This document shows positions 6,701 through 28,342 of a stretch of DNA of 28,342 nucleotides, in pieces. The stretch is taken from IMG/VR virus record IMGVR_UViG_3300020445_000051, positions 1 to 28,342 of that record; one strand, written 5' to 3'. Below the pieces are notes generated by a model. The model saw only the letters and a list, made by a program, of their open reading frames with translations. It was not told the origin of the DNA and searched no databases. The first letter of the stretch is position 1, and every line of letters starts with the position of its first letter. The stretch comes from a virus. Made by a program: the position numbers and the translations under genes.

Positions 6701-8098
6701 CTTACTTATTGTTTGATTAACTGCACCATCAAATGTTACGTCAGGGTCACTGAAGTAAGATCTGACGTTAATATCAATTTCTCCAGCACCACCGTCACCA
6801 GTATTATTAGCACCGAATAGAAGATTCCCTGAAGTATCGTTAATTTTAACATAGTTTAAATAATCAAATCCATGATGTGAACCTGCTATTGTTAACTCTT
6901 GATCTAGTTCAAAATTCTGTTGTGTATTATTGTCAGAGAATGATAATCTATTATTCTGAAGTTGAGTATTATCAATACCTTGAGCAGCAATGCTTACATG
7001 ACCATTATCATCAACATCAAAATCTTCTTGTGCAAATGAAGCAAGACCTTTTTGTTCTACCTTAGCAGCAGCAAGATATCTCCATCCATTAGTATCAGAT
7101 GCATCTGTATGAGTTGGTGCTGCAACTCCAGCAGAAATACCTGTAATTGCCTGATAAACCTTTGAAGCGTTCTCAATAATATCGTAACGCACATACGTAG
7201 TACCTGCATTGTAAGCAGCATACTTACTACCTTCTATTGCAGTAGCAATAGGAATAGTTAATGCGGATGTAAATCTACCCCACTGATCAACTGTAAATTG
7301 TGTTGTGTTAACAGTTATATTTGCAGCAGTTGGAAGACTATCTCCACCAACCGAAATTAAAGTAGATGGATTGTATACACCAACTTGTGCAATAAATTCT
7401 GCCTCTGATGCAATTGATGTATCAATAAGGTCAATCGTTGGGTTACCTGCAACACCACTACCATTAACAATAGATATCTTTCCAGAGGAACCCTGAAGGG
7501 TTCTAGGGATCATATTACCTGCTGATGCCCTAGTAATCAAACCTGTTGCAGTCATTCCTGCAATAGATGTTAAGTCAGTATCTAATGGTTGTACGTCAGT
7601 TAAACCTAAATCTACATATGAAGAAGGTGAAGCACCTGTTGTAATTCTACCTTTTGCGTCTACTGTTACCTTTGAATATTGTCCTGTAGATGTTGTAGTA
7701 CCATCATAATGTGGTAACGAAGTTAAGATCTGTAATTGTGCCGATATTGATAAGTTAGAAGATCCATCAAATGTGCCCGAACCTGCTAAGTCACTTGATA
7801 ACTGTATCTGACGTGGGTTTGCTAGTCTAGATGCTGTAGCAGCATTACCAATAATAGTGGCGGTGATAGATCCTGCACTAAAATTACCATCTGCGTCTCT
7901 TGCTACAAGAGTATTTGCTGTGTTAGCAACTGACTCTATCGGTCTAGCATATGGCAACGTGTTCCAACCCCTAACACCATCACCAATTTTGAATCGGTTT
8001 GTATCAAGTTCAATTCCAAGTTCACCTTGGGCTAACGTTGGGTTTTCGTTTGCCCACTCTTGAGCACCCCCTCGTCTTAGTTGAATTCTATTAGCCAT
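740..8098 (-). CDS. Giant repeat-built tail fibre protein with Mtd-like N-terminus
   Basis: This 2452-residue protein begins with IQLRRGGAQEWANENPTLAQ and GELGIELDTNRFKIGDG, the signature of the Mtd N-terminal domain found at the head of many phage fibre proteins, where it joins the fibre to the virion. Then come low-complexity beta-rich repeats: 'VARDADGNFSAG' and 'IAGMTATGLITR' units (residues about 65-230, repeated near 1440-1530), two copies of a block with 'DRGxEFRYYD' (near 556-653 and 1243-1335), many 'GTLxVxxxTxFNxTVDV' units between them, eight units of about 70 residues (1749-2308), and a 12-residue AIHGN array (2313-2371). The C-terminus carries a 'TSGA' type module. I see no C-type lectin or chaperone domain at the end. 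It sits between the DUF4815 protein and gp13, the T4 position of gp12 and wac, so a short tail fibre or whisker role is likely. No Shine-Dalgarno sequence is evident; a late promoter lies upstream. Confidence 0.85.
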   Translation of the reverse strand: MANRIQLRRGGAQEWANENPTLAQGELGIELDTNRFKIGDGVRGWNTLPYARPIESVANTANTLVARDADGNFSAGSITATIIGNAATASRLANPRQIQLSSDLAGSGTFDGSSNLSISAQLQILTSLPHYDGTTTSTGQYSKVTVDAKGRITTGASPSSYVDLGLTDVQPLDTDLTSIAGMTATGLITRASAGNMIPRTLQGSSGKISIVNGSGVAGNPTIDLIDTSIASEAEFIAQVGVYNPSTLISVGGDSLPTAANITVNTTQFTVDQWGRFTSALTIPIATAIEGSKYAAYNAGTTYVRYDIIENASKVYQAITGISAGVAAPTHTDASDTNGWRYLAAAKVEQKGLASFAQEDFDVDDNGHVSIAAQGIDNTQLQNNRLSFSDNNTQQNFELDQELTIAGSHHGFDYLNYVKINDTSGNLLFGANNTGDGGAGEIDINVRSYFSDPDVTFDGAVNQTISKTGDGNFTLGLSQNSGSARNLTLVALNAGAGTSSVVIQAEDTVTIDATEATGKVHIEDSRFQSNYIATSNATMYLDPGDDRAVTGTVVVQGNLQVDGTTTTVNSTTLAVDDPIITLGGDTAPAADDNKDRGVEFRYYDASAKVGFFGYDDSASDLGGHTGAFTFLYDATNTSEVFTGTNAGIIAGNLSLTTNTNSTSNTTGDLVVAGGAGIGDDVNIGGTLDVDTNFRTHGTSRFDDNIVFQGASKTLELKNGSGTTKTTLHTTTGNVDIGGILTQTGAIDAASSLNVAGLVYLESTDNPNIVSGAPHTIGSSDYGALRVDGGAYFDKDVLFNGDLYLNGDFNQQEDATENYGLRNYLSIRYKLRTGSVSAYTPSYSNHNTSNLRVYGGAGINTSLFIGATGSGEGLFIGKKNSGDDIEFQVIGATGNTTVGRSATGSATVGTFTVHGDTTLGRDVQIDGDVTVTGATEFNSTVDVDADFAVRNGTTDKFFVDNVTGNTNIEGTLTADGHTELNSTLNVDSNTTIGGTLEVTNNSEFNGTVDVDNNFAVRSGTTDKFTVASSTGNTVIKGTLNGQDAVDFDTTLNVDGATTIQDDLIVKSDNKMFKIQTAGAVDKFTVDTDNGNTTISGTLDVSLAAGINNTLGVTGITSVTNNTQQTLTGSYAADGSLQVTGGVGIARDTAIGGSARIYGNLETTGTLTQTDDAAFAGKITITDTKDITSYGDAQVSLTTTGGARVNKNLYTGGDFVVYDTVGTQNSFFVDTSSGNAEVRNNFQVGGNLTVLGSTTTVESTVTTVEDPVMTLGGATAPTSNDGLDRGIEFRYYDSQARLGFFGWDNNLNTFRLLTAATNSAETFSGTDGTLQVGSVNITGAGTALDVDNNVNVDGTITVDGQLISQVPSGPALVIPNTVKIANLNADLLDGMTTATAATNSTVVARDSSGDFSAHIITVESGAGASAGIQGNATSADIWKTARTLTIDGVVDGTVSVNGSADFTVTTTFNDADITALAGMSGTGLVARTAANTYAQRTIQVSGGGIGISNGGGVAGNPSITITSNSANSANNLVIRDASGNFAAGVITASLTGAVTGNVTGNLLATTTDSKNVRPDTDSSYTLGTTTHRWSKIWTDDIEAGGTITGALTGNVTGNVTGNADTATALATARNIGGVSFDGTAAINLPGVNAAGNQDTSGNAATATALATPRNIGGTAFNGTADITPATATQAANLSNHDTADLSEGTNLYYTEARVQAKLDNAYAQLSAMLNNLATATTLTLNLSGDPTPGTVVSLGSITASGLGGFTAGSAVATSGGTGTGLTVDTTVSAAGAITAIAVNGAGTGYLIGDSLQITNPNLGGVSTLNLGTLSGGVGGFTSGTNVSTTGGSGSALTFDTTVDGNGNITNLSVNAAGTGYANGETITIVNANAGGASTIDTLVGGTGYANGTAIATTGGGGSGLTLNLTTSNGVVTNAAINAAGTGYAVDDTITIVNANATGVRTLGSIATAGTGYAAGSAIATTASGSGTGFTADITVDGSGSVTGVTINDDGSGYANSEVLTITNANASGVKTLGSISAGGTGYGSGTALNTTSSGSGSGLTVNVTVTNGVVDGVSINNDGSGYAASEVITIANANASGVNTLGTVTAAGSGYSTGSALATTTGGSGTGLTVDITANGSGGVTAVAVNNDGINYSNGDTLTITNANATGVNTLGSIVSAASGYSAGTVNTTSGGSGTGLTVTVAVNGSGGVTGMTVVNDGSGYAASDTITLTNANASGVKTLNSIMVAGTGYPASQTITGVATTTNNSGTGLTLDVTTNGSGHVVGIAINNDGTGYAASDTITISGSGDGNSITGVAAIHGNATTTVGAIHGNSATLTVGAIHGSAATIPVSAIHGNSATIPVSAIHGNSSTIDVATIFANATVDIATTYTHATFALSDITTMEVGATVTGATSGTTGVITAMGTSLITVDNVDGFFKVGEAVAANDVTTLTISSFA
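986..1162 (-). repeat. 36-bp coding tandem repeat (AIHGN array)
   Basis: Five in-frame units read AIHGNATTTVG, AIHGNSATLTVG, AIHGSAATIPVS, AIHGNSATIPVS and AIHGNSSTIDVA. The first is 33 bases and the rest are exactly 36 (boundaries at 1130, 1094, 1058, 1022 and 986). Two decayed units (TIFANATVDIA, TTYTHATFALS) follow towards the C-terminus. Synonymous codon changes between units show the array is selected at protein level. The 12-residue period with one His per turn suggests a narrow beta-prism or beta-helix shaft. Confidence 0.9.
1175..2854 (-). repeat. Eight coding repeats of about 210 bp (70-residue GSGY modules)
   Basis: Eight tandem in-frame units cover residues 1749-2308 of the fibre. 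The general form is 'LGSIxxAGTGYxxGxAxATT', then 'GSGTGLTVDxTVxGxGxVT', then 'VxINNDGSGYAxxDTITI', ending in 'NANASGV' (NANATGV, NPNLGGV and NANAGGA in other units). Units 3-8 are closest to one another; units 1 and 2 have 'GGFTAG' or 'GGFTSG' in place of the first 'GTGYxxG'. The last unit replaces the NANA motif with GSGDGNSI. Nucleotide copies have diverged but remain in phase, so the array probably grew by unequal exchange and is now kept as protein. Confidence 0.9.
4096..4372 (-). repeat. Second copy of the DRGIEFRYYD fibre block
   Basis: This coding segment begins GNLTVLGSTTTVESTVTTVE, continues with DPVMTLGGATAP and DRGIEFRYYDSQARLGFFGW, and ends near SVNI. It matches the block at 6140-6433 residue by residue through the core, while the linkers differ. 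I recognise this block as common in structural proteins of marine T4-like phages. It probably forms a globular knob in an otherwise fibrous shaft. Confidence 0.85.
6140..6433 (-). repeat. First copy of the DRGVEFRYYD fibre block
   Basis: This coding segment begins GNLQVDGTTTTVNSTTLAVD, continues with DPIITLGGDTAP and DRGVEFRYYDASAKVGFFGY, then DATNTSEVFTGT. It is paired with the copy at 4096-4372, about 690 residues further towards the C-terminus. This copy has a short insert (SASDLGGHTGA) before the conserved Phe-rich strand. Confidence 0.85.
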
Positions 8099-16130: not shown

Positions 16131-17663
16131 TTAGAATTCAATAACAACTTTAATGTCTTCAATCTGGTCGTTAGCACGAGAAATCGTACGTCTATTATCT
16201 ATGTAGATAAGATTACCAGAGTTAGACTCTATCTCAGGTTTTGCATAACCAGAGGTAAATCTCATACCTAGGTCATATTCGGTGTTGTTAATAACACGAG
16301 AAGAGGTGTTAGGAACAGCAGGGAAGTTCACATCTGGGTCGCCAGAAGCACCAGACGAGGAACCTTGAATGGCATTAGAACCATCAAACTCGTTCAAAGA
16401 ACCAGTAACAGCAGGGAAAATACCATCAACTCTATTTTGATAATACTTAAGAACCTTAGTTGTTGAGTTCCAAGAAATAACCTTACCAGTTGCAGTAACA
16501 GACTGACCACCCACAATACGAGTTTGTGTAATTGTTTCGTCAGGAATGAAGTTACCTTGGAAGGTTGTTGGGAAGATAACTGCTCTTGCAGCAGATAATG
16601 TTAGATCAGAAAGAAGTTCAGTAGTACCATACTTCTTAGGATTAGTGCAAAGACCAATACGACGATAATCGTTATCAATCGGGAAGTCTCCAGCACCTTC
16701 ATCATATGATAGTTTAGCGTTAACCATAACACGGTAAGCACCCACTTCCACTACTGGGTCTTTACCATGACCACCTGGAGGTGGAATGATAACGTCAATT
16801 TGACCACCAGTTCCAGTACCAATACCAGAAACTGAGTTAACGGTTACTTTACCAAAGGAATATCCAGTACCACCAGATGTCACAGTAGCAGAAATAACAC
16901 GACCACCATCAACCACGATGGAAACACGTCCACCAGTTCCATCTCCAGCAATCGCTACGTTATCATATGTACCATTGTTATAACCTGAACCAGATGAAGT
17001 AATGACAACAGTGTCAATTTCACCAGCAACAGCGTTAGAACTTACTGAAGCATCTGAGAATACAGGCATGTAATCAGCAGAGAAGAACTTCAGAACCTGT
17101 GCGACAGGAATAGTATACATATACTTCCAACGATACCCGTCAGAAGTAGTGATGATGGATGTAGAAGTACCAGTAGGTTCAATGGTAGAAGGCTTACCAT
17201 TAGGGTCAGCAGGAGAAGTACCGTTATAAATGCACTTATATACTTGGTAATTGGAGTTAACGACATAGAAGTCAGAGTCATACAACTTAGTAGCACCAGA
17301 CGATGCTGTGTTAGTTGGTGAGTAGTCATGACGATACATGTCATAAGTATAACCCAAACCACCAGTAGTTTGTTCTGGGGGAATCCAGTCAATACGACGT
17401 ACGACTTGAATCGTGTCAGCAGCAAGAACACGCTTCAATGACATCATATCATCGTAAGCATCAGAGAACTCATCAAATGAGTCTACCGCTTGCGGCGGTG
17501 AGTTTTCGTTGTCCCATTCTTGGGGACGACCAATAAAGATGTATAGACGATCTCTATCATCACCCGCAGTTGTGTCACTTGCCAGAGGATCTGGTCCTTC
17601 TAGTGACTTAATAAACTTCTGGGCTGTAAATATTCTAAATTGATCAGTAAGTAGTGCTGCCAT
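16131..17663 (-). CDS. 8: Baseplate wedge protein, T4 gp8-like, with a GSGY-module insertion
   Basis: The 510-residue protein has gp8 landmarks: LYIFIGRPQEWDNE (40-53; T4 gp8 'TIFITFGRSEPW'), a DDMMSLKRVL segment (71-80) followed by RRIDW (89-93), and SDGYRWKYMYTIP (174-186; T4 gp8 'GDGYVWEYLFEIP'). T4 gp8 is a 334-residue dimer in the baseplate wedge. About 80 of the extra residues (214-293) are two 'GSGY/GTGY' beta modules inserted between conserved parts; the sequence then returns with GGHGKDP (297-303). A second addition near 370-415 resembles the 'TSGA' type module. The start is fixed by an in-frame TAG just upstream. A GGAGG at 17682-17678 is the best Shine-Dalgarno in the window but lies 14 bases from the ATG. 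A TATAAATA promoter lies upstream. Confidence 0.87.
   Translation of the reverse strand: MAALLTDQFRIFTAQKFIKSLEGPDPLASDTTAGDDRDRLYIFIGRPQEWDNENSPPQAVDSFDEFSDAYDDMMSLKRVLAADTIQVVRRIDWIPPEQTTGGLGYTYDMYRHDYSPTNTASSGATKLYDSDFYVVNSNYQVYKCIYNGTSPADPNGKPSTIEPTGTSTSIITTSDGYRWKYMYTIPVAQVLKFFSADYMPVFSDASVSSNAVAGEIDTVVITSSGSGYNNGTYDNVAIAGDGTGGRVSIVVDGGRVISATVTSGGTGYSFGKVTVNSVSGIGTGTGGQIDVIIPPPGGHGKDPVVEVGAYRVMVNAKLSYDEGAGDFPIDNDYRRIGLCTNPKKYGTTELLSDLTLSAARAVIFPTTFQGNFIPDETITQTRIVGGQSVTATGKVISWNSTTKVLKYYQNRVDGIFPAVTGSLNEFDGSNAIQGSSSGASGDPDVNFPAVPNTSSRVINNTEYDLGMRFTSGYAKPEIESNSGNLIYIDNRRTISRANDQIEDIKVVIEF
16785..17024 (-). repeat. GSGY module pair inserted in gp8
   Basis: Residues 214-293 of the gp8-like protein contain 'TSSGSGYNNGTYDNV', 'GTGGRVSIVVDGGRVISATV' and 'TSGGTGYSFGKVTV'. 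This is the same consensus as the eight-unit array in the fibre gene (1175-2854), although the genes are otherwise unrelated. Confidence 0.75.
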
Positions 17664-17695: not shown

Positions 17696-20600
17696 TCAGT
17701 CGTTGCGGATACTTGTATCGTAGGTTATTCTCTTTATTCTCCAAGAAGCACCACCCGCACCAACGAGCTTCTCACCACCAAGGATAACCTCAGCGACTGC
17801 ACCACTTCCTGTAGTATCAATTCCTGCATTTGTAAATGTCACAGTAGGGTGCAAAGTACCTGCTGTAACTACTTTCTTATATCCGTAACCACCATTGGTC
17901 ACAGTTAAAGAACCAACCTGGTCACCGTCAGATGTCATATTAACAACTGCCTGTGCTTGTATCTCACCAGAATTTTCAATTACAACTGTTGGAGTTGCAG
18001 TATAATCAAGTCCTGGTTCCAGTACCCTAACCTCTGTCACAGTAGAATCATCAGAGAACTCATAGAAATAACCATTTGTTCCGAGGTTTAGATTGTTAGT
18101 AAAGTATGGAAGTGGGTTGATAAGAACTAGAGTTCTAGTTGCTTGCTCCCATGATTCCACCGTTGCTTGAATATTAGAACTTTGTCCTGTTACAGTCTCA
18201 CCTACAACAAATGCTATACTATTAGTATCTGTTGTTGCTAATGTTACTCTTATTCTAGCAGTATGCTCAACACCATCTCTTAATGCTCCAGCAGATTCAA
18301 CCGTGGAGTACTTAAATGGTATAGAAGCATCTTTTACTTGATCACCAATTGCGAAGATAGTAGTATTCTGACCACCAACGGTTTCTTCAATACCATATAA
18401 TGAACTATGTATCCCACCATCTAAGTTAATTTGGTCGGCATAATCAGTTCCAGTATTGAATACATCAGGAATACCATCACCTGCACCTGAAGCTTCAGCA
18501 TCATCTTCAAATGCTTTGTCGGTCAAAGTTAATTGATATACGACAATACTTTCTCCTACAGCATCTATAATGTTATGTGGTAACTGTGTATTGTTTGATG
18601 CGTTAGGAGTACCACCATCAAAAGCAACTGTTCTATCTGAAGTAGATGGAATACCAGCATCAATAAATGCCAACTCATCAACTTGGAATACAATTAACAG
18701 TTCTCTACTTACTGGGTTCCAATCATAAACTTTAGCAATCTTATTACTTGCACTCTCAACCTTACGAACTAACCTATCTCCAACATTAAATTCGTATGTT
18801 GATACACCATCAACGTTCTGAATACCATCAACTATAACTCTCTGGTCATATCTAAAGTTAGTACCTCTAGTACATCCTAAGAATTTTTTAGTATTTTTAC
18901 TAGTATATTCAATGATCTCCTTACCGATCATGAATTTTCCAGATCCAGGATAGGCATCTGTACTATCTACAACTACTTCTTCATCGTTAGTATCAAGAGA
19001 TTTTTGAAGACCAGTAACAAAGAAACTAGCAGCATTATAAGACTGACGATTTCTAACCTTTCTTTTTACATTAACTAATTTAGTAAATATTATATTAGGT
19101 GATGATGTATATCCTCTACCTGGATCTATAACATCAATACCTACAACTTCACCTTGATCAATCCTTGCAGTTGCTCTAGCACCAACTCCACCACCACCTT
19201 GAATGTAAATATATGGTGGTTCTTGATAGAATCTACCTGGATTAGTAACAGCAATATTAGTAACTATACCACTATAATCAATGTTAGCAACACCCTCAGC
19301 ATCTTGTCCACCACCACCTTGGAAGAATAAAGTTGGTGGAGTTATATAACCAGAACCAGGATTATCTAATGATAAACCACTTATAGACTGTGTTATGGGA
19401 ATAGCAGCAGCACCCGTACCTTCACCACCAAGAATATCTGCTCTTGCTTCACCAAAATATCCATCACCACCAGCAATCATCTTAACATATTCAACCTGAC
19501 CAGCATTAGTTTCACTAAGAACAACTTCTGCTCTAGCACCGCTAGGTACTTCAGATGCTTGTACAGGAGGATTTGCACCTTTTCTAACTACATCACCATA
19601 ATAAGTATTACCAATAGCATAAGGGTACTCTGGAGTCCCATCAGCTGCCGTTGTCATAAAGTATGCATAAGTTCCATTTGGATACTCAGGAGTTACACAA
19701 TACCTACCATTATGCTCATCAAGATCACCTTCAGTAACATCCCAAATATAATCTGAAATGAATGTACCAGCAGGATAATTTAGAATATTAGTCTTATTAC
19801 CCATGTTAGGATGCATATAACAGAAGTAATGCAAATTAGCAGGTGCAAACCAAGGAACTGTAATTACAAGTTTTCTATTAGTAGCAGAGGTGTAATTAGA
19901 AACATACTGAGAATAGGTTACTTCTGCATTATTAATATAATACTTAACACCACGTTCATAAAGAACATCTTGATCATATAAGGTCTGACTATCTGCATGC
20001 CAACCTTGCTTATCTGTTTCTCCAGCAAAATCTGTTAATAGTAATACATGACCATCATTACTTGCATCATCTAAATTAAATGTAACTGTATCACCACGAT
20101 TAATAAGTTCAATAGGTGCTACAACTCCATCTAATAAGAACTTACTATTAGCAGTAGTAACAACATAAGTTGTATTAGTAGGTGTATTGATTCCTACTCT
20201 ATTACCATCAATTTCAACACCAGTTTTAAACCTATAACCAGTATCAATTCTCTTAATTGCAGACTGATCATCTAATGGTGTTGTATAACCAAATGGTCCA
20301 TATATCGGATACCCATCATATGATATACCTAAAACCTTACTGTGACCACCAGTATGACGTGCCTTATCTCCACCAAAATTAGTTTCATTATAATAAGTCT
20401 TAATTGTAAATAAACTATTGGCAGCAGCAAATGAATCAACTACCTTAGCATCTTGGAACAAATATAAATGATCATTATTTGGATACCCATGATAAGCATC
20501 ATGATCTCTATAATTTATCTTAATCTGATCAAAATTAAATCCAACAGGAGGAGTACCATCTGATCCTGCATCTGGAGATATTAATGGTGATCCATTAGCA

Positions 20601-21133
20601 AGTAATCCAACCTGTTCAGGAAGACGATTAGGATTATTCTGTTCAGGAACATCTTTACCACCACGATAAACTATCGTATGAGAATATGTCTGACCAAAAA
20701 TATTATTGTTATTAAATGTACTAGGAAATACTCCTGTCCTAGCAGGATCTGGAAGATTGTTAGATACTAGTGTTAACCTATCTCCAGCAAATGCTCCTGT
20801 AGTAATAGATGCAGTTGTACTACTTAAAATACTTCTGATATCAAAAGAATCGTTGGTTAAGTTATCATCCTGTTTTGCTGTTATAACAACACGCAAAGGA
20901 TCATACCCTTTACCACCATTTAATACTCTTACATGAACAACCTTACCAGCTTCTATTATTGGATATAATATTGCTTCAATCTCTGGTGTACCACAATTAG
21001 TGATATCTAACTTAGGTGGATCTGTAGCAACATAGTCTTTACCACCGTCTTTAACGACAACAGCATCTACACCAAAGTCTTTATTAAAGATTGGTGTAAT
21101 AACTGCTCCAGATCCAGGTATTGTTCTCGTCAT
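17696..21133 (-). CDS. Virion protein with a cupredoxin-like domain nested in a YHYH domain, plus GSGY modules
   Basis: This is a 1145-residue protein. Residues 20-85 hold a GSGY-like pair (KDGGKDYVATDPP, LNGGKGYDPL). A YHYH-type domain starts near 115 with 'NLPDPARTG' and 'TYSHTIVYRGG' and reaches DGYPIYGPFGY (273-283). It is interrupted at about 305-451 by a cupredoxin-like domain with possible copper ligands H362, C438, H441 and M444 (FCYMHPNMGN). It resumes with YPAGTFISDYIW (453-464) and NGRYCVTPEYPNGTYAY (475-491). The signature YHYH motif itself is lost (DHLYLF). Further GSGY modules follow at about 547-687, then 'GKEIIEYTSKNTKKFLGCTRG'-type and 'TSGA'-type modules and more GSGY units near the C-terminus. 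The ATG follows the preceding gene after three bases (TAA TAA ATG), so translation is coupled. A baseplate or tail surface location is inferred from gp8 next door. Confidence 0.85.
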   Translation of the reverse strand: MTRTIPGSGAVITPIFNKDFGVDAVVVKDGGKDYVATDPPKLDITNCGTPEIEAILYPIIEAGKVVHVRVLNGGKGYDPLRVVITAKQDDNLTNDSFDIRSILSSTTASITTGAFAGDRLTLVSNNLPDPARTGVFPSTFNNNNIFGQTYSHTIVYRGGKDVPEQNNPNRLPEQVGLLANGSPLISPDAGSDGTPPVGFNFDQIKINYRDHDAYHGYPNNDHLYLFQDAKVVDSFAAANSLFTIKTYYNETNFGGDKARHTGGHSKVLGISYDGYPIYGPFGYTTPLDDQSAIKRIDTGYRFKTGVEIDGNRVGINTPTNTTYVVTTANSKFLLDGVVAPIELINRGDTVTFNLDDASNDGHVLLLTDFAGETDKQGWHADSQTLYDQDVLYERGVKYYINNAEVTYSQYVSNYTSATNRKLVITVPWFAPANLHYFCYMHPNMGNKTNILNYPAGTFISDYIWDVTEGDLDEHNGRYCVTPEYPNGTYAYFMTTAADGTPEYPYAIGNTYYGDVVRKGANPPVQASEVPSGARAEVVLSETNAGQVEYVKMIAGGDGYFGEARADILGGEGTGAAAIPITQSISGLSLDNPGSGYITPPTLFFQGGGGQDAEGVANIDYSGIVTNIAVTNPGRFYQEPPYIYIQGGGGVGARATARIDQGEVVGIDVIDPGRGYTSSPNIIFTKLVNVKRKVRNRQSYNAASFFVTGLQKSLDTNDEEVVVDSTDAYPGSGKFMIGKEIIEYTSKNTKKFLGCTRGTNFRYDQRVIVDGIQNVDGVSTYEFNVGDRLVRKVESASNKIAKVYDWNPVSRELLIVFQVDELAFIDAGIPSTSDRTVAFDGGTPNASNNTQLPHNIIDAVGESIVVYQLTLTDKAFEDDAEASGAGDGIPDVFNTGTDYADQINLDGGIHSSLYGIEETVGGQNTTIFAIGDQVKDASIPFKYSTVESAGALRDGVEHTARIRVTLATTDTNSIAFVVGETVTGQSSNIQATVESWEQATRTLVLINPLPYFTNNLNLGTNGYFYEFSDDSTVTEVRVLEPGLDYTATPTVVIENSGEIQAQAVVNMTSDGDQVGSLTVTNGGYGYKKVVTAGTLHPTVTFTNAGIDTTGSGAVAEVILGGEKLVGAGGASWRIKRITYDTSIRND
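19784..20191 (-). other. Coding segment of the inserted cupredoxin-like domain
   Basis: Residues about 315-450 of the 1145-residue protein. The order of possible ligands is His (GHVLLLTD), Cys, His, Met in C-x2-H-x2-M, followed by GN as in the adjacent gene's C-terminal domain (QCTMHPTMGN). A cupredoxin normally binds one type 1 copper through His, Cys, His and Met. Copper binding here is predicted, not shown. Confidence 0.7.
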
Positions 21134-21136
21134 TTA

Positions 21137-22321
21137 TTAAGTTACGATTACGATTTGGTTGCCCATAGTGGGATGCATGGTACACTGATAATATAATGTT
21201 GCTGGTGCATCCATAGGTACTGTGAATGTAGTTGTACCAGAACCATCATTAGTCACTCCAGCAGTATAAGCATTACCACCATTTGATTGTCTTATCTCAA
21301 ATGGATGAACAACATACTGTGAATCATTCTTAAATCTATAGACTTGTCCTCTTTGTAGATAGAGGATAGGATCATTAGTAGCACTTACAAATCCTGAACC
21401 AGTAAATGTATAGTGACTATTAGTTCCATCTTCACCTAGAGTCCATGTTAATGTTGGACCTGAAACTGGAATCCAGTCAAATCCATCATACATCAGCATG
21501 TCTCCTTCAGCTACACCTGTTCCTTCATAGGAGAATCCACCAGAACCAGTATAGTTAATGGTTAAGGTGTCACCAGTAATACTGGTTGTTATAGATGTAC
21601 CACCAGTAACAGTTAATGTATCAGTTGCTCCAAGAGCAGTTGTTGTACCAGTGTCAGCATTGATTGTAGCAAATATATTTCCACCGCCAGCCCCGCCACC
21701 AGTTCCAGGTCTAAACTCACCATTAGCAGAATTCCAGGTAGGAACTTCCCCGTCTGCATAAGTTGTACTTTGAACATTACCAATACTTTGTAATGTAGAA
21801 GTAGAAGTGTCTAAGATCTCACGCCATCCAGCAGCTGCTGAATAATATGCTTTACCTACATCATTAACATAGGCAAACATTCCTGTATACGTTCCATGTG
21901 CAGGAAGATTAGCAGATGCAACATAAGGAGCATTCCACTTTAGAAATCCATCAGCACCATCAATAATAGTATCGGTAGCATTAGTACCATTTCTTAAAGC
22001 AATATCACCACTTCCATCCGATTGAATTACAATATTACCATTACCTGAAGATACAATGTTATATCCATTAACGTTTAAATTCTGTTCTAACGTTGCTTTA
22101 TTAGTACCTTGACCTGGAGCAAAAGCAGTACCATTCCAAGTCAAAGAATCTCCTAAGTTAGGAGATGCAGTACTTACTAGAAGGTTTCCTGCTCCAGCCG
22201 ATCCACCTAATGAATCATAGAGTTCTGTGAAATTTTCATTGACTTTAGTACCACCAGCACGTAGTGAATCACCAGTGCCATCATTAGCTGTAGTACCAAG
22301 TGCTAGTAGTTGTTTTGCCAT
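21137..22321 (-). CDS. Fibre-like virion protein with C-terminal cupredoxin-like domain, 394 residues
   Basis: The N-terminus has the phage structural motif 'GTTANDGTGDSLRAGGTKVN' followed by ENFTELYDSLGG. A fibre-like middle (about 47-285) contains 'LEQNLNVNGYNIVSSG' and 'GDIALRNGTNATDTIIDG'. Residues 291-394 form a cupredoxin-like domain: strands LYLQRGQVYRFKN, H339 in YVVHPFEIR, then TLYYQCTMHPTMGN with C380, H383 and M386. In plastocyanin the four ligands are likewise His, Cys, His, Met, with C-x2-H-x4-M near the end. There is no signal peptide, so the domain is probably displayed on the virion. A CATAAATA late promoter overlaps the stop of the previous gene, and no Shine-Dalgarno is evident. 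The fold assignment rests on the motif and strand pattern only. Confidence 0.8.
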   Translation of the reverse strand: MAKQLLALGTTANDGTGDSLRAGGTKVNENFTELYDSLGGSAGAGNLLVSTASPNLGDSLTWNGTAFAPGQGTNKATLEQNLNVNGYNIVSSGNGNIVIQSDGSGDIALRNGTNATDTIIDGADGFLKWNAPYVASANLPAHGTYTGMFAYVNDVGKAYYSAAAGWREILDTSTSTLQSIGNVQSTTYADGEVPTWNSANGEFRPGTGGGAGGGNIFATINADTGTTTALGATDTLTVTGGTSITTSITGDTLTINYTGSGGFSYEGTGVAEGDMLMYDGFDWIPVSGPTLTWTLGEDGTNSHYTFTGSGFVSATNDPILYLQRGQVYRFKNDSQYVVHPFEIRQSNGGNAYTAGVTNDGSGTTTFTVPMDAPATLYYQCTMHPTMGNQIVIVT

Positions 22322-22338: not shown

Positions 22339-22346
22339 TATTTATG
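22339..22346 (-). promoter_or_regulatory. Late promoter CATAAATA overlapping a stop codon
   Basis: The minus strand reads CATAAATA, and its TAA is the stop codon of the YHYH gene ending at 22342. The next ATG (22321) is 17 bases on, leaving a leader of about 12 bases if transcription starts six bases after the motif. It matches the NATAAATA late consensus of marine T4-like phages. Confidence 0.65.
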
Positions 22347-23196
22347 AAGGTCTCTGTTCTTTAGTACTAGGACCGAAGATGTATGGGTAAACTGGCTTGT
22401 TATCCTCATCTAATGTGAGGTAATAAGCAAATGTACCACTAGGAAATTCAGGAGTAACTGCGTATCTACCATTATAAACATCAAGGTCTCCTAAACCATT
22501 TACGTATTCATAATCTTGGATAAAAGTTCCAGCATTATATTGGCTGTAACTATATGTCCTATTCGCAGGTGGAGTAGTTAATACTCTATATGAACTAGTG
22601 AGTCTTTTAGTTCCTTGTGAATTATCAGTTGAAACTTTATACCCAAATGGTCCATATATCGGATACCCATCAAAACATACACCAACGATCTTTGAATGAC
22701 CATCAGGATGTCTAAAGAAGTTACCTTCATAGTTGGAATTTGAGAAGTATCCATTGGATTGAATTACTCCGTTTGCCCAACAGTTAGTAAGAAAACTTCC
22801 TGAATGATAATGATATGATCCATTCTGCTCTGGGTGACCCCCACAAGGGTCTACACCGTACGCTTCTTCATTATATACTGCATTCCATTGAAAGTTCGCT
22901 GGTAGAGCATTAGTATCACCAGGTAGAGGACCACCAGCCGCAGAAGGGTTGGTCATCAATACACCATTAAGTGCAATACCTATACCACCAAGACCAGTTG
23001 CTTGAGGGTTAGAAGTATTAGTTCCACCTCTATATGTAATATCAAAACTATAAGTTTGTGCAGAGATATTGTTAGGATTATTAGGAAAATTCCCAGAACC
23101 TAAAGGATATCCAGCCAAAGCAGGATCGGGAAGACCATTACTTGTTACAGTAAGAGTATTCCCATCAATAGTAGCAGTAGTATTAGAAGCTGGCAT
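22342..23196 (-). CDS. YHYH-domain protein, 284 residues
   Basis: This is a near stand-alone YHYH domain. It shows 'NGLPDPALAGYPLG' (20-33), TYSFDITYRGG (48-58), an intact GSYHYHSGSF (126-135), GHSKIVGVCFDGYP (166-179) with IYGPFGY, and a C-terminal half with YNAGTFIQDYEY (220-231), YNGRYAVTPEFPSGTFAYYL (241-260) and PVYPYIFGP. Cysteines C118, C139 and C174 lie near the His-rich core. YHYH proteins are a family of unknown biochemical function that also occurs in bacteria and in marine T4-like phages; His clusters hint at metal binding. There is no signal peptide. The gene lies between a giant structural gene and the cupredoxin-type fibre gene and has its own late promoter motif. A virion location is inferred from context. 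Confidence 0.85.
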   Translation of the reverse strand: MPASNTTATIDGNTLTVTSNGLPDPALAGYPLGSGNFPNNPNNISAQTYSFDITYRGGTNTSNPQATGLGGIGIALNGVLMTNPSAAGGPLPGDTNALPANFQWNAVYNEEAYGVDPCGGHPEQNGSYHYHSGSFLTNCWANGVIQSNGYFSNSNYEGNFFRHPDGHSKIVGVCFDGYPIYGPFGYKVSTDNSQGTKRLTSSYRVLTTPPANRTYSYSQYNAGTFIQDYEYVNGLGDLDVYNGRYAVTPEFPSGTFAYYLTLDEDNKPVYPYIFGPSTKEQRPS

Positions 23197-23214: not shown

Positions 23215-23222
23215 TATTTATG
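23215..23222 (-). promoter_or_regulatory. Late promoter CATAAATA overlapping a stop codon
   Basis: CATAAATA contains the TAA stop of the giant gene ending at 23218 and ends 18 bases before the YHYH gene ATG (23196). The arrangement is the same as at 22339-22346, with a predicted leader of about 13 bases and no good Shine-Dalgarno. Confidence 0.65.
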
Positions 23223-26200
23223 GGGCGGGTGTACTTGACCATATGCTTGTTACAGCGAAGGTTCCAACTGTAGTACCTGTACCCGCTGGAGATGATCCTT
23301 GTCCAGGAATGTCTCCACTGTCCACGTTGGCAAGATTTTCGGGTGTTACATTAATAACATCAGTATCAACAACCTCTTCTTTATAAAGAGCTTCTTCACC
23401 GTATGCACTGAGATCTGGAGCAGTCCATTCATCAGCAACCACGTTAGTGATAGTAACACCAGGATAATTATAATTTGAACCAGGGGCGGTTGTATCTACA
23501 CGAGAAACACCAACCAGTGCTTTAACTGCACCATCAAAACCAGATGCACTGTCAACACGGATAACTGGACGTGCGCTGAATCCAGATCCAGGATTGGTTA
23601 CCTGAACAGAATCAATTCTATTCTTAACGATAGCAGCATTACCTTGAGCATCACGACCAAATACAGATCCGATATACTCAAATGTTACTAGTGTATTAGA
23701 AGATTCAATGACAGCAACTTCTCTATCTTCAGTCTCACCTTGAATGTCTAAGAGGTCACCTGCCTCAATTGGAGGAACAATCTCAGACTGCGTAACGTCA
23801 GCATCAGAACCAATGTATGCGAAACCAACGAATGTTGATCCTACACGAGGAGTTTCTTTGAAAACGACACGAGAACCAACAAGTTCAAAACCGATTCCAG
23901 GTTGCTGAATAACACCGTTAAGCGAGATAATGATGTTGTTGTCTGCGATAATAGACTCAGTTGCCTGTACACCTTCAGTAAGTGCGATAGAGTAGAATGT
24001 ACCGTCACGCTTAAGGTTGAAGGATGATCTCAATGAGTCAAACTCAAATGATATGTCATCCAACTGACGCATCTTACCTACGTAGAAACCAGTGAAGGAA
24101 GAACCAATGGTAGGTGCTTCGTTGAACTGTATGATGTCAGAGAATGCTGTGTATGAACCAGCCGCGCCTGGAGGTTGTAGAATACCATTCACAAAGACCA
24201 TCATGTGACCTTCAGGATCTGGGAAGTATGGAGTACCGTTTTGCTCAGTTAGTTTGAACTGTGTTTGTGTACCATCAAATCCAACGAACCAACGCTTAGT
24301 ACGTCCTACGACATCTATCTTCTCACTAGATGCTGCTTTATATCCATCATCAGAAATGATAGTATCATTTCCAGTAAATGTTCCAACAACATCACTTAGA
24401 TACACACGATTCGTTAATCCAATTTCATCAATTCTACTGACTGTACCGTAAGCAGTTGTAGTTGCGTTAACTGTAGTAGATACCTGACCATAAATTATTG
24501 GACTTGAAGTTTCACCTAATTGGTATTGACCAATATATTGACCATTAGCGAATGCTGAAGATCCTATTGGTGACACGTACAAGTAATTATTTGCATCATC
24601 CCATCCAGTAACAATACCATATGCACCACCGTCAATTATTGACTGATTATTGTTTGCTTGATAAACATACTGACCAACAGAGAAGTCAAGAGTTGCGTTA
24701 GCACCTGTGAGAGTAACACCTAAGCGTGTGTATCCCGTAGCAACAACCTTATCACCCGTAGCAATATTTGCTGCTATTGAAGGATGCTTAGTAACATCTA
24801 AGTAAATTCTAGTAGCATCTGGGTAAACAACTGAATTCTCTTCAAATGCACCTACGACACTCTCAGTATCAATTGTAAGTTTACCACCAGTATTATCAAG
24901 AACCGCACCTTCATTCTTATTGAATGCTACGATATCTGCCTTAGCACCACTACTATAACCCTTGAATGAGTATCCTGCCTTCATCTCATTAACGAGATTA
25001 ATAACTTGGAATCTATCAACGATAGTTTGAATACCCGCGTTAGTTAAAGTACCAACTTCAAATGTGATATTTGGAGCACCACCATTACCTAATAGTGCAT
25101 CAGGAAGTGTTAATACATCACTAACACCATATCCAGTACCACCATTAGCAATTGTAATATTAGCAGCACCTTGATCATCAACAGTTATGTTAAATGTTGC
25201 GTTAGAACCATTACCACCTGTAGCAGCGATACCATCGTAAGAACCTTGAGTTCTATTTACGTTAGCACCTGCATTTGTTAAGTTCGTAATAGATCCAACA
25301 AGGTTAGTACCACCTGCGAGAGCAGCACCAGAAGTTTGACCTGTAATTCCTAGGTATTGTGTGAATGTACCTGCACTGATTACAACGTCCATATAACGGA
25401 AGTTATCATCAGAAGAAGTAGCATAAACAACACCTGTTATAGCAGCGTTACCAGTGATTTGTATGATTTCACCTAAAGCGAAGTCTGCATTACCACCACC
25501 TAGAGTAACTTGATCTGCTTTGAAACTAAATCTCTTAAAGATCTTAGCAATTCTTGCTTCGTTACTTGTAACTTTCTCAATTTCAGCATAACTATCAGAT
25601 CCAACAGCATAGAAGTGATCAGAACCAACTATTTTTTGTCCAAGTCCTACAGGAACGTTTCTAGTACCACCAGCCACGTACGTAGTTGTTGGAAGTGTTA
25701 CACCAACATAACCAGTTTGTTGCTCATAGAAACTATCATCTACAAGTTGTGACTTATAAAGTCTGATAGTATTCTTGATACGGAACATTACTTCAGGTGT
25801 ATCATAGTATATGTTCAATTCTGGTTTGTAAGCAGGTATTGTTCCAGAATCAGGAGCAGGATTAATCAAATTATTATTGAGTTGCTCCTCAACAAAGTCC
25901 TCAAATTTATCAAGAATATAGTTCTTAATATTAAATTCATCAGAGATATAGAACTTCTCACCAGCCTCAGACTGATAGATGTCTAGGAATCCCTTATTAA
26001 GTTTAGCACCCCAGATAAATGAACCCTTAGTACCATCACCCTCAGAACCACCACCAGATAAAGTACCAGTATTATTGAGCATGTATTCCTTCATAGTGAT
26101 AGTAGAAATACCGAATGGAACACGAATTGTTATGAATGGTCGGAACCAACCAAATCCATAAGGTTTAACACCCCAGTATGTTCCCTTCATACCATTTGAA

Positions 26201-28342
26201 TCTGAACCATCACCAACAATTACGTTACCGTTAATGAATAGTGAAGGACCAATAGCACCTGTTACTGCATCCCATGTAAATTCTGCCTTATCGGTAGCAC
26301 TCCATGAAATACTATGACGGAACTTATAATACTCATCTTGCTTAACAAAGCAACTGAATGTATATTCCTGATAGGATAGTGAAGAACCTTCGTCAAACTT
26401 GTTGATAGCATCATCAAATTTGATTGTGTCCTTATCAAAGGTATCATATGTTGGTAGTGTAAATTCTCTTTCAATTACCTTAGCACTAGTATTAGCACCA
26501 GGAATATACTTGTCAGCAGTCATAGTGCCGTCTGGTGCAACACCTATATCATTAGAAATAGTACCACCAGTTACAGTCCAACCACCAGCATCAAAAGTCT
26601 CTCTTTGACCACTTGGCCAGATATTATCTGATTGAGTCTCACCTGAGACTGGTGATTGTATTAGACGTATATTTTTTAATGCTGCGGTATTGTTGAGGGT
26701 AGCAGTAGTTACTGGACCTTCAATACATTCTTCATCAGCACTCGTAAATGTATGAGTGAAATCACCACCAGTTTGTATCGCATTAATAGCAGCACTTTGT
26801 CCAGCAACAAATGTATGTGGGTACTGATCAGCAGTAGCAGCAATACCAACATTAACAATAATAGTACCATCTTGCTTCTTAATACCGTTAGGTGTACATG
26901 TTACGTACGTGTGTAAAGAAGTATCAGGTGAAGCACCAATATTAACAGAAAGCTGATCAGCACTAATGATTGTAGGTTCTAACCACTTTTGACTCCAAGG
27001 ATCAGTTGATCTTGGATAAGCATGAACACTAATCTCATTATCTAACTGACACTTGAATGTGATTGCTCCATCCTCAAATTTAATCAAATCACCAGCAGAA
27101 AGACCGTGGTTGTTGATGTCAAGTGTTAATATACCATTATTAGGATTATATGAAGCAGTATCAGGATCATCTACATTATCTGTACCTACTGATTTAATGT
27201 TAATTGACTTATTATAGAATGGGTCAGTTGTACGTGGGTATGTTTGGTTACCACCACCTTGAGTACAAGTGAATGTCAAACTATTAGGTGCAAGTCTAAT
27301 ACTAGTACCAGCAAGCAATCTATGACCAGTCATCACTGCACCAGGTAGACTGGAAGCATATGTATGAGATAATGGTACGCTAATAGCACCCTGACCACCG
27401 TTAACGTTAACTGTAATAGTTGTAGAACTAGTTCCTGTAATAGCGAGTCTGTTCTTGGCAGCATAATCTATACCACCTACAGCACGAGAACCAGTTAATC
27501 TAGGATACGCAGATTGAGTTTGATTACTTTGTCCAACATCAACAGTAACAGTTGTTCCAGTTACAGCATCAATTGATAATATTTGTCCAGATGCAGGGTC
27601 GGAAGAACGAGGATAAGGGTGCTGTGTAGCATGACTATCAGCATCGCAAGTAAAGATGACTGCCTGATCATCAATCTCAAGAGTATCAGAAGTAGTATAA
27701 CTATGAGATCCAATCTCCAATACTAGAAGTCCAGTAGCAGGAGTATATGTTGTACCAGCAGCAGCAGTCTTTTGACTTAAAGTTCCACCAACATCAAAGG
27801 TTAATCCATTAGTTACACCAGTAACAAATGTATGAGTACCTGTTGCAGCAGCACAAGTAAAGGTGAGAGATTCTGGTTTAAGACCAATGGTATCATCAGT
27901 AGTCAATCCATGATTAAGACCAACAGTCAACTCCATATCACCACTTGTGGCATTGTATGTTGCGTTAGTTACATCAAGTGCCCCAACTGTCAACTCCATA
28001 TCACCAGTAGTATGGTTATAATCAGCAGCAGTAGGAGTATAAGTTCCAGCAGTTGTCTTACCAACATCAACCGTAATAGTATTTGTGGTTACAGATTCAA
28101 CAGCAATATCTTTCTTATAGAATGGATCAGTTGGTCTTGGATATGAATGGTAACTACTATCATCATCCATTGCACAAGTAAATGTCAATGAATTTGGTTT
28201 GATTTGAATTACATCATTCTGTTTCTGGAGACAATCACTAAGTGCTGTCTGGAAAGTATGAGCAGTAGTGTTAGAAGATATTCCTACATTAACCACAAAA
28301 GTATTTGTAGTTACTCCTGTAATAGTCAACCATCTACCACTA
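23218..28342 (-). CDS. Giant virion structural protein (5' end outside the window), at least 1707 residues
   Basis: The frame is open to the window edge (codons for SGRW precede the TTG at 28329), so the true start lies upstream. Roughly the first 520 visible residues are repeats built around 'SLTFTC...HxYPRxTDP' and 'TVDVG'. A probable jelly-roll or lectin-like segment follows (26625 to about 25930) with GWTVTGGTISNDIGVAPDG, TFSCFVKQDEYYKFRHSISW and a Trp-rich GTYWGVKPYGFGWFRPF. Then come 'YDTPEVMFRIKNTIRLYKSQ', one GSGY-type module pair, two 'FVNGILQPPG' / 'ISLNGVIQQPG' modules, and 'NPGSGFSARPVIRV' near the C-terminus. It precedes gp8 in the cluster, where T4 has gp6 and gp7, so a baseplate wedge role such as gp7 is possible, but I see no clear T4 gp7 signature. 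The end is a Pro/Gly/Ser-rich tail. Confidence 0.85.
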   Translation of the reverse strand, partial: SGRWLTITGVTTNTFVVNVGISSNTTAHTFQTALSDCLQKQNDVIQIKPNSLTFTCAMDDDSSYHSYPRPTDPFYKKDIAVESVTTNTITVDVGKTTAGTYTPTAADYNHTTGDMELTVGALDVTNATYNATSGDMELTVGLNHGLTTDDTIGLKPESLTFTCAAATGTHTFVTGVTNGLTFDVGGTLSQKTAAAGTTYTPATGLLVLEIGSHSYTTSDTLEIDDQAVIFTCDADSHATQHPYPRSSDPASGQILSIDAVTGTTVTVDVGQSNQTQSAYPRLTGSRAVGGIDYAAKNRLAITGTSSTTITVNVNGGQGAISVPLSHTYASSLPGAVMTGHRLLAGTSIRLAPNSLTFTCTQGGGNQTYPRTTDPFYNKSINIKSVGTDNVDDPDTASYNPNNGILTLDINNHGLSAGDLIKFEDGAITFKCQLDNEISVHAYPRSTDPWSQKWLEPTIISADQLSVNIGASPDTSLHTYVTCTPNGIKKQDGTIIVNVGIAATADQYPHTFVAGQSAAINAIQTGGDFTHTFTSADEECIEGPVTTATLNNTAALKNIRLIQSPVSGETQSDNIWPSGQRETFDAGGWTVTGGTISNDIGVAPDGTMTADKYIPGANTSAKVIEREFTLPTYDTFDKDTIKFDDAINKFDEGSSLSYQEYTFSCFVKQDEYYKFRHSISWSATDKAEFTWDAVTGAIGPSLFINGNVIVGDGSDSNGMKGTYWGVKPYGFGWFRPFITIRVPFGISTITMKEYMLNNTGTLSGGGSEGDGTKGSFIWGAKLNKGFLDIYQSEAGEKFYISDEFNIKNYILDKFEDFVEEQLNNNLINPAPDSGTIPAYKPELNIYYDTPEVMFRIKNTIRLYKSQLVDDSFYEQQTGYVGVTLPTTTYVAGGTRNVPVGLGQKIVGSDHFYAVGSDSYAEIEKVTSNEARIAKIFKRFSFKADQVTLGGGNADFALGEIIQITGNAAITGVVYATSSDDNFRYMDVVISAGTFTQYLGITGQTSGAALAGGTNLVGSITNLTNAGANVNRTQGSYDGIAATGGNGSNATFNITVDDQGAANITIANGGTGYGVSDVLTLPDALLGNGGAPNITFEVGTLTNAGIQTIVDRFQVINLVNEMKAGYSFKGYSSGAKADIVAFNKNEGAVLDNTGGKLTIDTESVVGAFEENSVVYPDATRIYLDVTKHPSIAANIATGDKVVATGYTRLGVTLTGANATLDFSVGQYVYQANNNQSIIDGGAYGIVTGWDDANNYLYVSPIGSSAFANGQYIGQYQLGETSSPIIYGQVSTTVNATTTAYGTVSRIDEIGLTNRVYLSDVVGTFTGNDTIISDDGYKAASSEKIDVVGRTKRWFVGFDGTQTQFKLTEQNGTPYFPDPEGHMMVFVNGILQPPGAAGSYTAFSDIIQFNEAPTIGSSFTGFYVGKMRQLDDISFEFDSLRSSFNLKRDGTFYSIALTEGVQATESIIADNNIIISLNGVIQQPGIGFELVGSRVVFKETPRVGSTFVGFAYIGSDADVTQSEIVPPIEAGDLLDIQGETEDREVAVIESSNTLVTFEYIGSVFGRDAQGNAAIVKNRIDSVQVTNPGSGFSARPVIRVDSASGFDGAVKALVGVSRVDTTAPGSNYNYPGVTITNVVADEWTAPDLSAYGEEALYKEEVVDTDVINVTPENLANVDSGDIPGQGSSPAGTGTTVGTFAVTSIWSSTPAP
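26740..28341 (-). repeat. Degenerate coding repeats 'LTFTC...HxYPRxTDP'
   Basis: Four full units and one short unit are visible: NSLTFTCAMDDDSSYHSYPR, ESLTFTCAAATGTHTF (lacking YPR), AVIFTCDADSHATQHPYPR, NSLTFTCTQGGGNQTYPR and AITFKCQLDNEISVHAYPR. They are usually followed by TDP and a 'xIxSV...TVDVG' strand pair. Spacers differ in length and sequence. Each unit keeps one Cys, and most have a His before YPR. Confidence 0.75.

Follow-up and report, generated by a model that had tools for sequence, protein, structure and literature searches.

A cupredoxin-like insert in the YHYH domain of a cyanomyovirus baseplate-wedge protein and its predicted copper site

What lies inside the interrupted YHYH domain of a cyanophage baseplate-wedge protein, and does it hold a metal? 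The question is raised by P0001, a protein encoded in a stretch of viral DNA of 28,342 bases (IMG/VR record IMGVR_UViG_3300020445_000051, positions 1 to 28,342; referred to below as the window), in which the large genes all lie on the minus strand and, by Pfam and PHROG profile matches, form a set of the T4-like cyanomyovirus type. P0001 matches phrog_708 over its full length, in two stretches; the name baseplate wedge subunit is the PHROG label for that family, not an experimental result. The protein, a stand-alone relative of its YHYH domain, and the parts of that domain are located as follows.

17696..21133, minus strand: P0001, 1145 residues, baseplate wedge protein before gp8 (phrog_708, 1679.5 bits; PF14240, 78.8 bits, cut-off 25)
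22342..23196, minus strand: P0002, stand-alone YHYH protein, 284 residues (phrog_2576, 486.1 bits; PF14240, 132.9 bits)
20222..20812, minus strand: N-terminal part of the P0001 YHYH domain, residues 108-304, motif His lost (BLASTP with P0002 and alignment)
19778..20221, minus strand: cupredoxin-like insert of P0001 (insert 2), residues 305-452 (alignment, predicted fold, ligands invariant in group A)
19598..19777, minus strand: C-terminal part of the P0001 YHYH domain, residues 453-512 (BLASTP with P0002 to residue 508)

We compared P0001 with P0002, in which the YHYH motif is intact and the insert is absent. BLASTP aligned P0001 residues 108-304 with P0002 residues 3-207 (35% identity, E 1e-28) and P0001 residues 453-508 with P0002 residues 220-275 (57% identity, E 3e-16), leaving 148 residues between the two blocks in P0001 (305-452) as against 12 in P0002 (208-219); PF14240 likewise matches P0001 in two stretches and P0002 in a single one. 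The initial annotation had described, at window positions 19598-20791 (P0001 residues 115-512), a clean cupredoxin-like insertion in the YHYH domain of a virion-type protein. The two-block alignment, structure prediction and fold comparison with the PDB confirm the insertion, with a small revision of its size, which had been given as about 145 residues against about 16 in P0002. P0001 resembles the PF14240/phrog_2576 type of P0002 on either side of the insert, at a score well above the family cut-off, and differs from it in that the domain is split by a cupredoxin and both motif His are lost. None of 97 YHYH open reading frames (ORFs) from a cellular-genome collection (80 loci, the best 80 of 426) had a cupredoxin profile match.

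The fold of the insert was predicted with AlphaFold2 on P0001 residues 96-520. An alignment of 83 rows, from which gappy and near-identical rows had been removed, gave a predicted local distance difference test score (pLDDT) of 94.1 and a predicted template modelling score of 0.90, a confident model, as against a pLDDT of 33.9 with 10 close relatives. The best PDB match found by Foldseek was the cupredoxin AcoP (E 6e-4, probability 1.00), and 48 of the 50 rows listed were copper proteins, the remaining two being human factor VIII and PD-L1. All 50 rows listed by VIA-align were copper proteins, rusticyanin among them with a Z of 8.9 (root mean square deviation [rmsd] of 2.7 over 103 residues), which is barely higher than the best Z of 7-8 that the tool warns is typical of models with no clear match; the fold claim accordingly rests on the VIA-align result together with the sequence evidence. 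The region aligned, model residues 219-360, corresponds to P0001 314-455, where structure prediction and fold comparison both back a separate barrel, as the initial annotation had supposed. In the model C438 stands at the end of one strand, with H441 and M444 in the loop after it and a last strand beyond; this is the layout of a type-1 copper site. On this model the insert would form a cupredoxin-type Greek-key barrel, and we regard insertion and cupredoxin fold together as very likely. Its four candidate ligands, correctly numbered in the initial annotation, are encoded at the following positions.

20048..20050, minus strand: candidate ligand H362 (18/18 group-A rows)
19820..19822, minus strand: candidate ligand C438 (18/18 group-A rows)
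19811..19813, minus strand: candidate ligand H441 (18/18 group-A rows)
19802..19804, minus strand: candidate axial ligand M444 (18/18 group-A rows; Lys in 5/5 group-C rows)

The conservation of these residues was followed in 121 distinct relatives, the window included, after dropping rows of 800 residues or fewer, rows with incomplete ends and contained duplicates; the underlying scans covered the best 80 of 133, the best 80 of 500, the best 80 of 426 and the best 80 of 506 (78 distinct). In group A (18/121) all four ligands are present in insert 2, and a further insert that we call insert 1 (see below) is absent; the relatives in this group besides the window are at least 48% identical to P0001. 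H362, C438, H441 and M444 are invariant in all 18, as are 32 of the 148 insert columns overall. On this invariance we rejected chance resemblance of the ligand pattern, and we also rejected the oddity of a single contig, given that P0001 is matched in 454 of 50,697 phage records, in 279 of which a single place covers at least 80%. Group C (5/121) likewise lacks insert 1 and retains His, Cys and His, with Met replaced by Lys (in these proteins, L109-L112 and L116, the loop reads CHNHINK).

The sequence link from the insert to known copper proteins runs through the product of the adjacent gene, whose C-terminal domain we term the gp9 domain.

21137..22321, minus strand: P0003, gp9-like tail-fibre connector, 394 residues (phrog_677, 435.1 bits; T4_gp9_10_N, 31.6 bits, cut-off 25)
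21140..21454, minus strand: C-terminal cupredoxin of P0003, residues ~290-394, putative ligands H339, C380, H383 and M386 (profile and relation to the P0001 insert)

The P0003 C-terminal domain and the P0001 insert were related both by hhalign (probability 98.1, E 7e-14) and by BLASTP (27% identity over 111 residues, E 4e-7), while the two parts of the YHYH domain, compared with the gp9 domain as controls, reached hhalign probabilities of 0.2 and 0.3%. Searched against the PDB, a gp9-domain profile of 12 sequences found type-1 copper proteins in 17 of 17 matches at E<=10: 12 amicyanin variants (best E 1e-3), three copper nitrite reductases/oxidases, auracyanin and pseudoazurin. The direct match of P0003 to the NCBIfam amicyanin family (E 0.038) is far under the cut-off. 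The four gp9-type ligands, H, C, H and M, are each present in 129 of 129 domains, and the domain was matched in 343 phage records, cyanopodoviruses included; in the cyanopodoviruses P-SCSP2 and P-GSP1 it sits towards the beginning of a long protein, and its ligands are present. The loop spacing C-x2-H-x2-M is that of amicyanin, and the P0001 insert, with a His followed by this motif in a predicted barrel, resembles amicyanin, rusticyanin and AcoP; it differs from single-domain cupredoxins in being inserted within another domain of a virion protein, and from the gp9 domain in an extra segment of about 37 residues that bears a W378-H379 motif. In the printed amicyanin alignment of the gp9 domain the first His stands two positions away from amicyanin's own His, so the ligand role of H362 rests on motif and invariance. 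Two other origins were set aside: recent donation of the insert by the adjacent gp9 gene, in view of the 27% identity, and capture of a plastocyanin gene, in view of a differing loop spacing. Separately, two proteins of about 2640 residues (L338, L343) combine a cupredoxin match with a whole YHYH domain, well separated along a single chain; a stretch of L338 matches Pfam Copper-bind at E 0.0024, just under the cut-off.

Several points weigh against a copper site in the insert, besides the narrow margin of the VIA-align score. Sequence searches with the insert alone retrieve neither a copper family from Pfam (E<=10) nor a copper protein from the PDB; its sole PDB sequence match, major histocompatibility complex (MHC) class I at E 0.31, was treated as chance. 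The Foldseek alignment has an rmsd of 6.7 over 158 columns, and AcoP is the single match with E<=0.001. The axial Met has become Lys throughout group C. Finally, a passage of PMC3037559 on the virion of the group-B phage S-SM1 gives 41 proteins, including T4-GC969 (encoded directly upstream of gp9 in S-SM1), and T4-GC399, which is the P0001 family, is not met in that passage. With these points counted, we still consider copper binding by the P0001 insert likely; most likely a single copper ion would be bound, through H362, C438, H441 and M444.

The largest group of relatives, B (98/121), has changed the place of the ligands. Its insert-2 domain is present, with H362, C438 and H441 each kept in 0 of 98 proteins, Met at 444 in four, and C-x2-H in the insert-2 loop in none of the 98. 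Of the residues that are not ligands, W378 is still found in 97 and H379 in 94 of the 98, indicating that the domain has been kept in group B while its site was lost; by profile comparison (probability 100, E 3e-49) it is plainly the same insert as insert 2 of group A. The picture is not entirely clean, since a His stands one position past 362 (at 363) in 21 of the 98 rows, and the stretch 434-450 contains a Cys in 10, a His in 19 and both in four. All 98 proteins carry insert 1, which consists of 226-395 extra residues at about P0001 243-254 and holds a cupredoxin, in a loop of this YHYH domain other than that of insert 2. Among 69 aligned insert-1 cupredoxins (duplicates and L157, which the pattern missed, were left out) the ligands H, C and H are present in 69 each and M in 68, with Met absent in L137. 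All 18 proteins of group A and 97 of 98 in group B have a single C-x2-H-x2-M, and the five of group C have none. Profile comparison relates the insert-1 cupredoxin to insert 2 of A (probability 95.9, E 5e-9); weaker values were obtained for it against the gp9 domain (85.7) and against insert 2 of B (92.7), and for the gp9 domain against insert 2 of B (84.4).

These counts bear on a different reading, in which the insert is an architectural beta-sandwich with zinc, iron or no metal, its Cys, His and Met being kept for stability or for another metal. The ligand-free insert-2 domain in 98 of 98 group-B proteins argues that the barrel is useful without metal, group C dispenses with the axial Met, and barrels of the cupredoxin kind are found in numerous viral structural proteins (66 predicted viral structures in BFVD match our model at E<=0.001, although the model also spans the YHYH part). 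We nevertheless find this reading unlikely: all four ligands are retained in three separate domain sets, the decay of the insert-2 ligands is paired with a ligand-bearing insert 1 (full motif in 97 of 98), and the C-x2-H-x2-M loop is that of amicyanin, the best PDB match of the gp9 domain.

How the two domains came to be nested can be read from shorter orthologues, which delimit a removable cassette.

19508..20851, minus strand: removable cassette of P0001, residues ~95-542, YHYH and cupredoxin (short orthologues without the cassette)

The wedge protein of Synechococcus phage S-SZBM1 (615 residues; phrog_22827) matches P0001 residues 1-93 and then 543-999 and has the same place before a gp8-like gene, but unlike P0001 has neither YHYH domain nor cupredoxin; no YHYH or cupredoxin match was found in any of 27 short-form ORFs, 22 of which are distinct and longer than 550 residues. 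The short forms thus indicate a scaffold with the YHYH domain nested in it and the cupredoxin nested in the YHYH domain, group B having one insert more. The long form of phrog_708 (group B, as in S-SM1 and syn9) shares with P0001 the family and the order gp9, wedge protein, gp8, and differs in its extra, ligand-bearing insert 1 and its insert 2 without ligands. In an IQ-TREE phylogeny of 61 of 140 rows group B is monophyletic (99.9/100), so that the change of site between inserts counts as one event. A midpoint-rooted FastTree of 118 tips (three of the 121 rows dropped) supports A+C at 1.0 and B at 0.634; in the tree that includes the short forms the value printed for B is 0.118, though rerooting may have displaced the labels. 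With the short forms as root, B falls inside an A/C grade with moderate support (71.4/92 in IQ-TREE, for the split of A7 and the short forms from the rest), and because of this placement the ligand-bearing insert 2 of group A suggests itself as the older state, with equally moderate support.

The initial annotation had also proposed a double, possibly metal-binding head, which the evidence does not support. The SYHYHS of P0002 aligns with LYLFQD in P0001, where both motif His are gone. In cellular YHYH rows (n = 19) the equivalents of P0002 D116, H129, H131, H167 and D176 are kept in 19, 19, 19, 18 and 19, respectively, and all five are kept in 4 of 4 stand-alone YHYH rows accompanying the short form; the assignment of the metal-binding residues of the YHYH domain is our reading of this conservation. 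Wedge-protein rows of groups A and C keep H129 in 0 and H131 in 1 of 16, those of group B in 1 and 13 of 38, with H167 in all rows of both sets; viral stand-alone YHYH rows keep H129 and H131 in 6 of 10 each. As the YHYH part of P0001 has lost its motif His, as have nearly all of its relatives, the cassette probably holds one metal site, not two. For YHYH domains a passage of PMC7824862 predicts a Zn site, made up of three His and one Asp, and hydrolase activity in the tail. On that view P0001 would be a metal-dependent hydrolase with the cupredoxin as an accessory, and the equivalents of H167 and D176 are indeed kept in wedge proteins. P0001 does not have the full site described in that passage, however, both motif His being absent there and present in P0002; with the same loss nearly throughout its relatives, a hydrolase of this type is highly improbable.

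The explanation that we favor is that P0001 is a cyanomyovirus baseplate-wedge protein encoded next to gp8, with a scaffold that carries the cassette of residues ~95-542, and that it and the adjacent gp9-like connector have one predicted copper site apiece. The copper-loaded barrels would be exposed, metal-stabilized modules with structural and adhesive roles at the outer baseplate and where the fibres attach. Selection would retain a single complete site in the wedge protein, which group B has in the second cupredoxin, in the other loop. The insertion, the predicted fold, the conservation of the ligands, their exchange between the two inserts, the orthologues without the cassette and the gene order are shown by the data; we infer metal binding, the identity of the metal, exposure and role, the exposed structural and adhesive module following from position, fold and conservation; as a whole this explanation is tentative, at a little under an even chance. 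A passage of PMC7029224 lists YHYH domains among the possible receptor-binding parts of these baseplates. The site could instead serve chemistry, through electron transfer, by taking up copper from seawater or delivering it to the host, or by recognizing a copper receptor of the host. Conservation of the ligands would suit such a role, and iron carried in tails has been put forward (the Ferrojan horse idea, in a passage of PMC11705849), but no partner, redox centre or receptor was found, and Pfam and PHROG profile scans indicated no copper-handling genes among the neighbours in the window. Electron transfer or copper uptake by the cupredoxin site is possible, and the chemical reading as a whole rather improbable.

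In a broader proposal, T4-like cyanophage virions would be copper proteins, with one selected type-1 site each in the wedge protein and in the fibre connector, relocated within the wedge protein in one large clade, where a second cupredoxin would have been gained and the earlier ligands lost by decay; copper would then matter for adsorption to a photosynthetic host that has a copper economy of its own, or for the triggering of the baseplate on it. We offer this broader proposal as a possibility somewhat short of even. With the copy numbers of T4, if they hold here, there would be about 24 copper sites per baseplate. If the site binds copper, the tailed viruses that infect marine Synechococcus and Prochlorococcus would have this metal in the very part that makes contact with the host. 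Whether cyanophage adsorption depends on metal could then be tested directly, and copper would join the metals discussed as carried by marine viruses. The family is in addition a clear natural example of nested domain insertion with a metal site changing place within one protein. The literature that we searched, with most subscription papers and bioRxiv outside its scope, yielded no paper on cupredoxins in cyanophage baseplates.

The gene order supplies the setting. In T4, gp7 precedes gp8, and P0001 resembles T4 gp7 in its position before gp8. By sequence P0001 matched no chain in the PDB (E<=1), and an eight-sequence profile of the P0001 body matched nothing there at E<=10, with T4 baseplate entries within the library; the T4 gp10 entry was found with P0003. 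T4 gp7 is described as absent from these phages in a passage of PMC7029224. In reading order the window contains a giant ORF, P0002, P0003, P0001, P0004, a DUF4815 protein and a long structural protein, and the order from giant ORF to gp8 is common to the isolates S-SSM6b, S-RIM14 and S-ShM2.

16131..17663, minus strand: P0004, gp8 homologue, baseplate wedge (PF09215, 60.8 bits; phrog_438, 767.9 bits)

Across relatives we counted contexts as distinct ORFs, dropping rows with a short upstream sequence (5 of group A, 55 of B, 2 of C, 8 of the short form and 2 unclassed) and setting aside one short-form row, L063, as a fragment of an A-type gene. A stand-alone YHYH gene stands directly upstream of the gp9-like gene in 17/17 of group A, 3/3 of group C and 11/11 of the short form, and in 0/51 of group B, a count that refers to that position only and with which S-SM1 and syn9 agree; the gp9 cupredoxin is present in 82 of 82 cases. 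In L063 the A-type wedge gene lies in two overlapping ORFs (2006-3958 and 3814-5466), through sequencing error, mutation or frameshifting. In three contigs from bacterial and archaeal genome records (L211, L212, L214) a YHYH gene precedes one that encodes a gp9-type cupredoxin; these contigs may be phage sequence within cellular genomes. Two relatives of P0002 (L010:1986-3773, L014:1978-3714) have a C-terminal PHA depolymerase-like domain (alpha/beta hydrolase) that P0002 lacks; the L010 domain matches NF050058 at E 8e-8, under the cut-off. The giant structural ORF (window 23218-28342, minus strand) extends past the window edge, and the gene at the equivalent position in S-SSM6b is 20.8 kb long (record 26677-47475). 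At the other end, P0006 (window 740-8098, minus strand) starts with a major tropism determinant N-terminal domain (PF18454) and ends in AIHGN-motif repeats.

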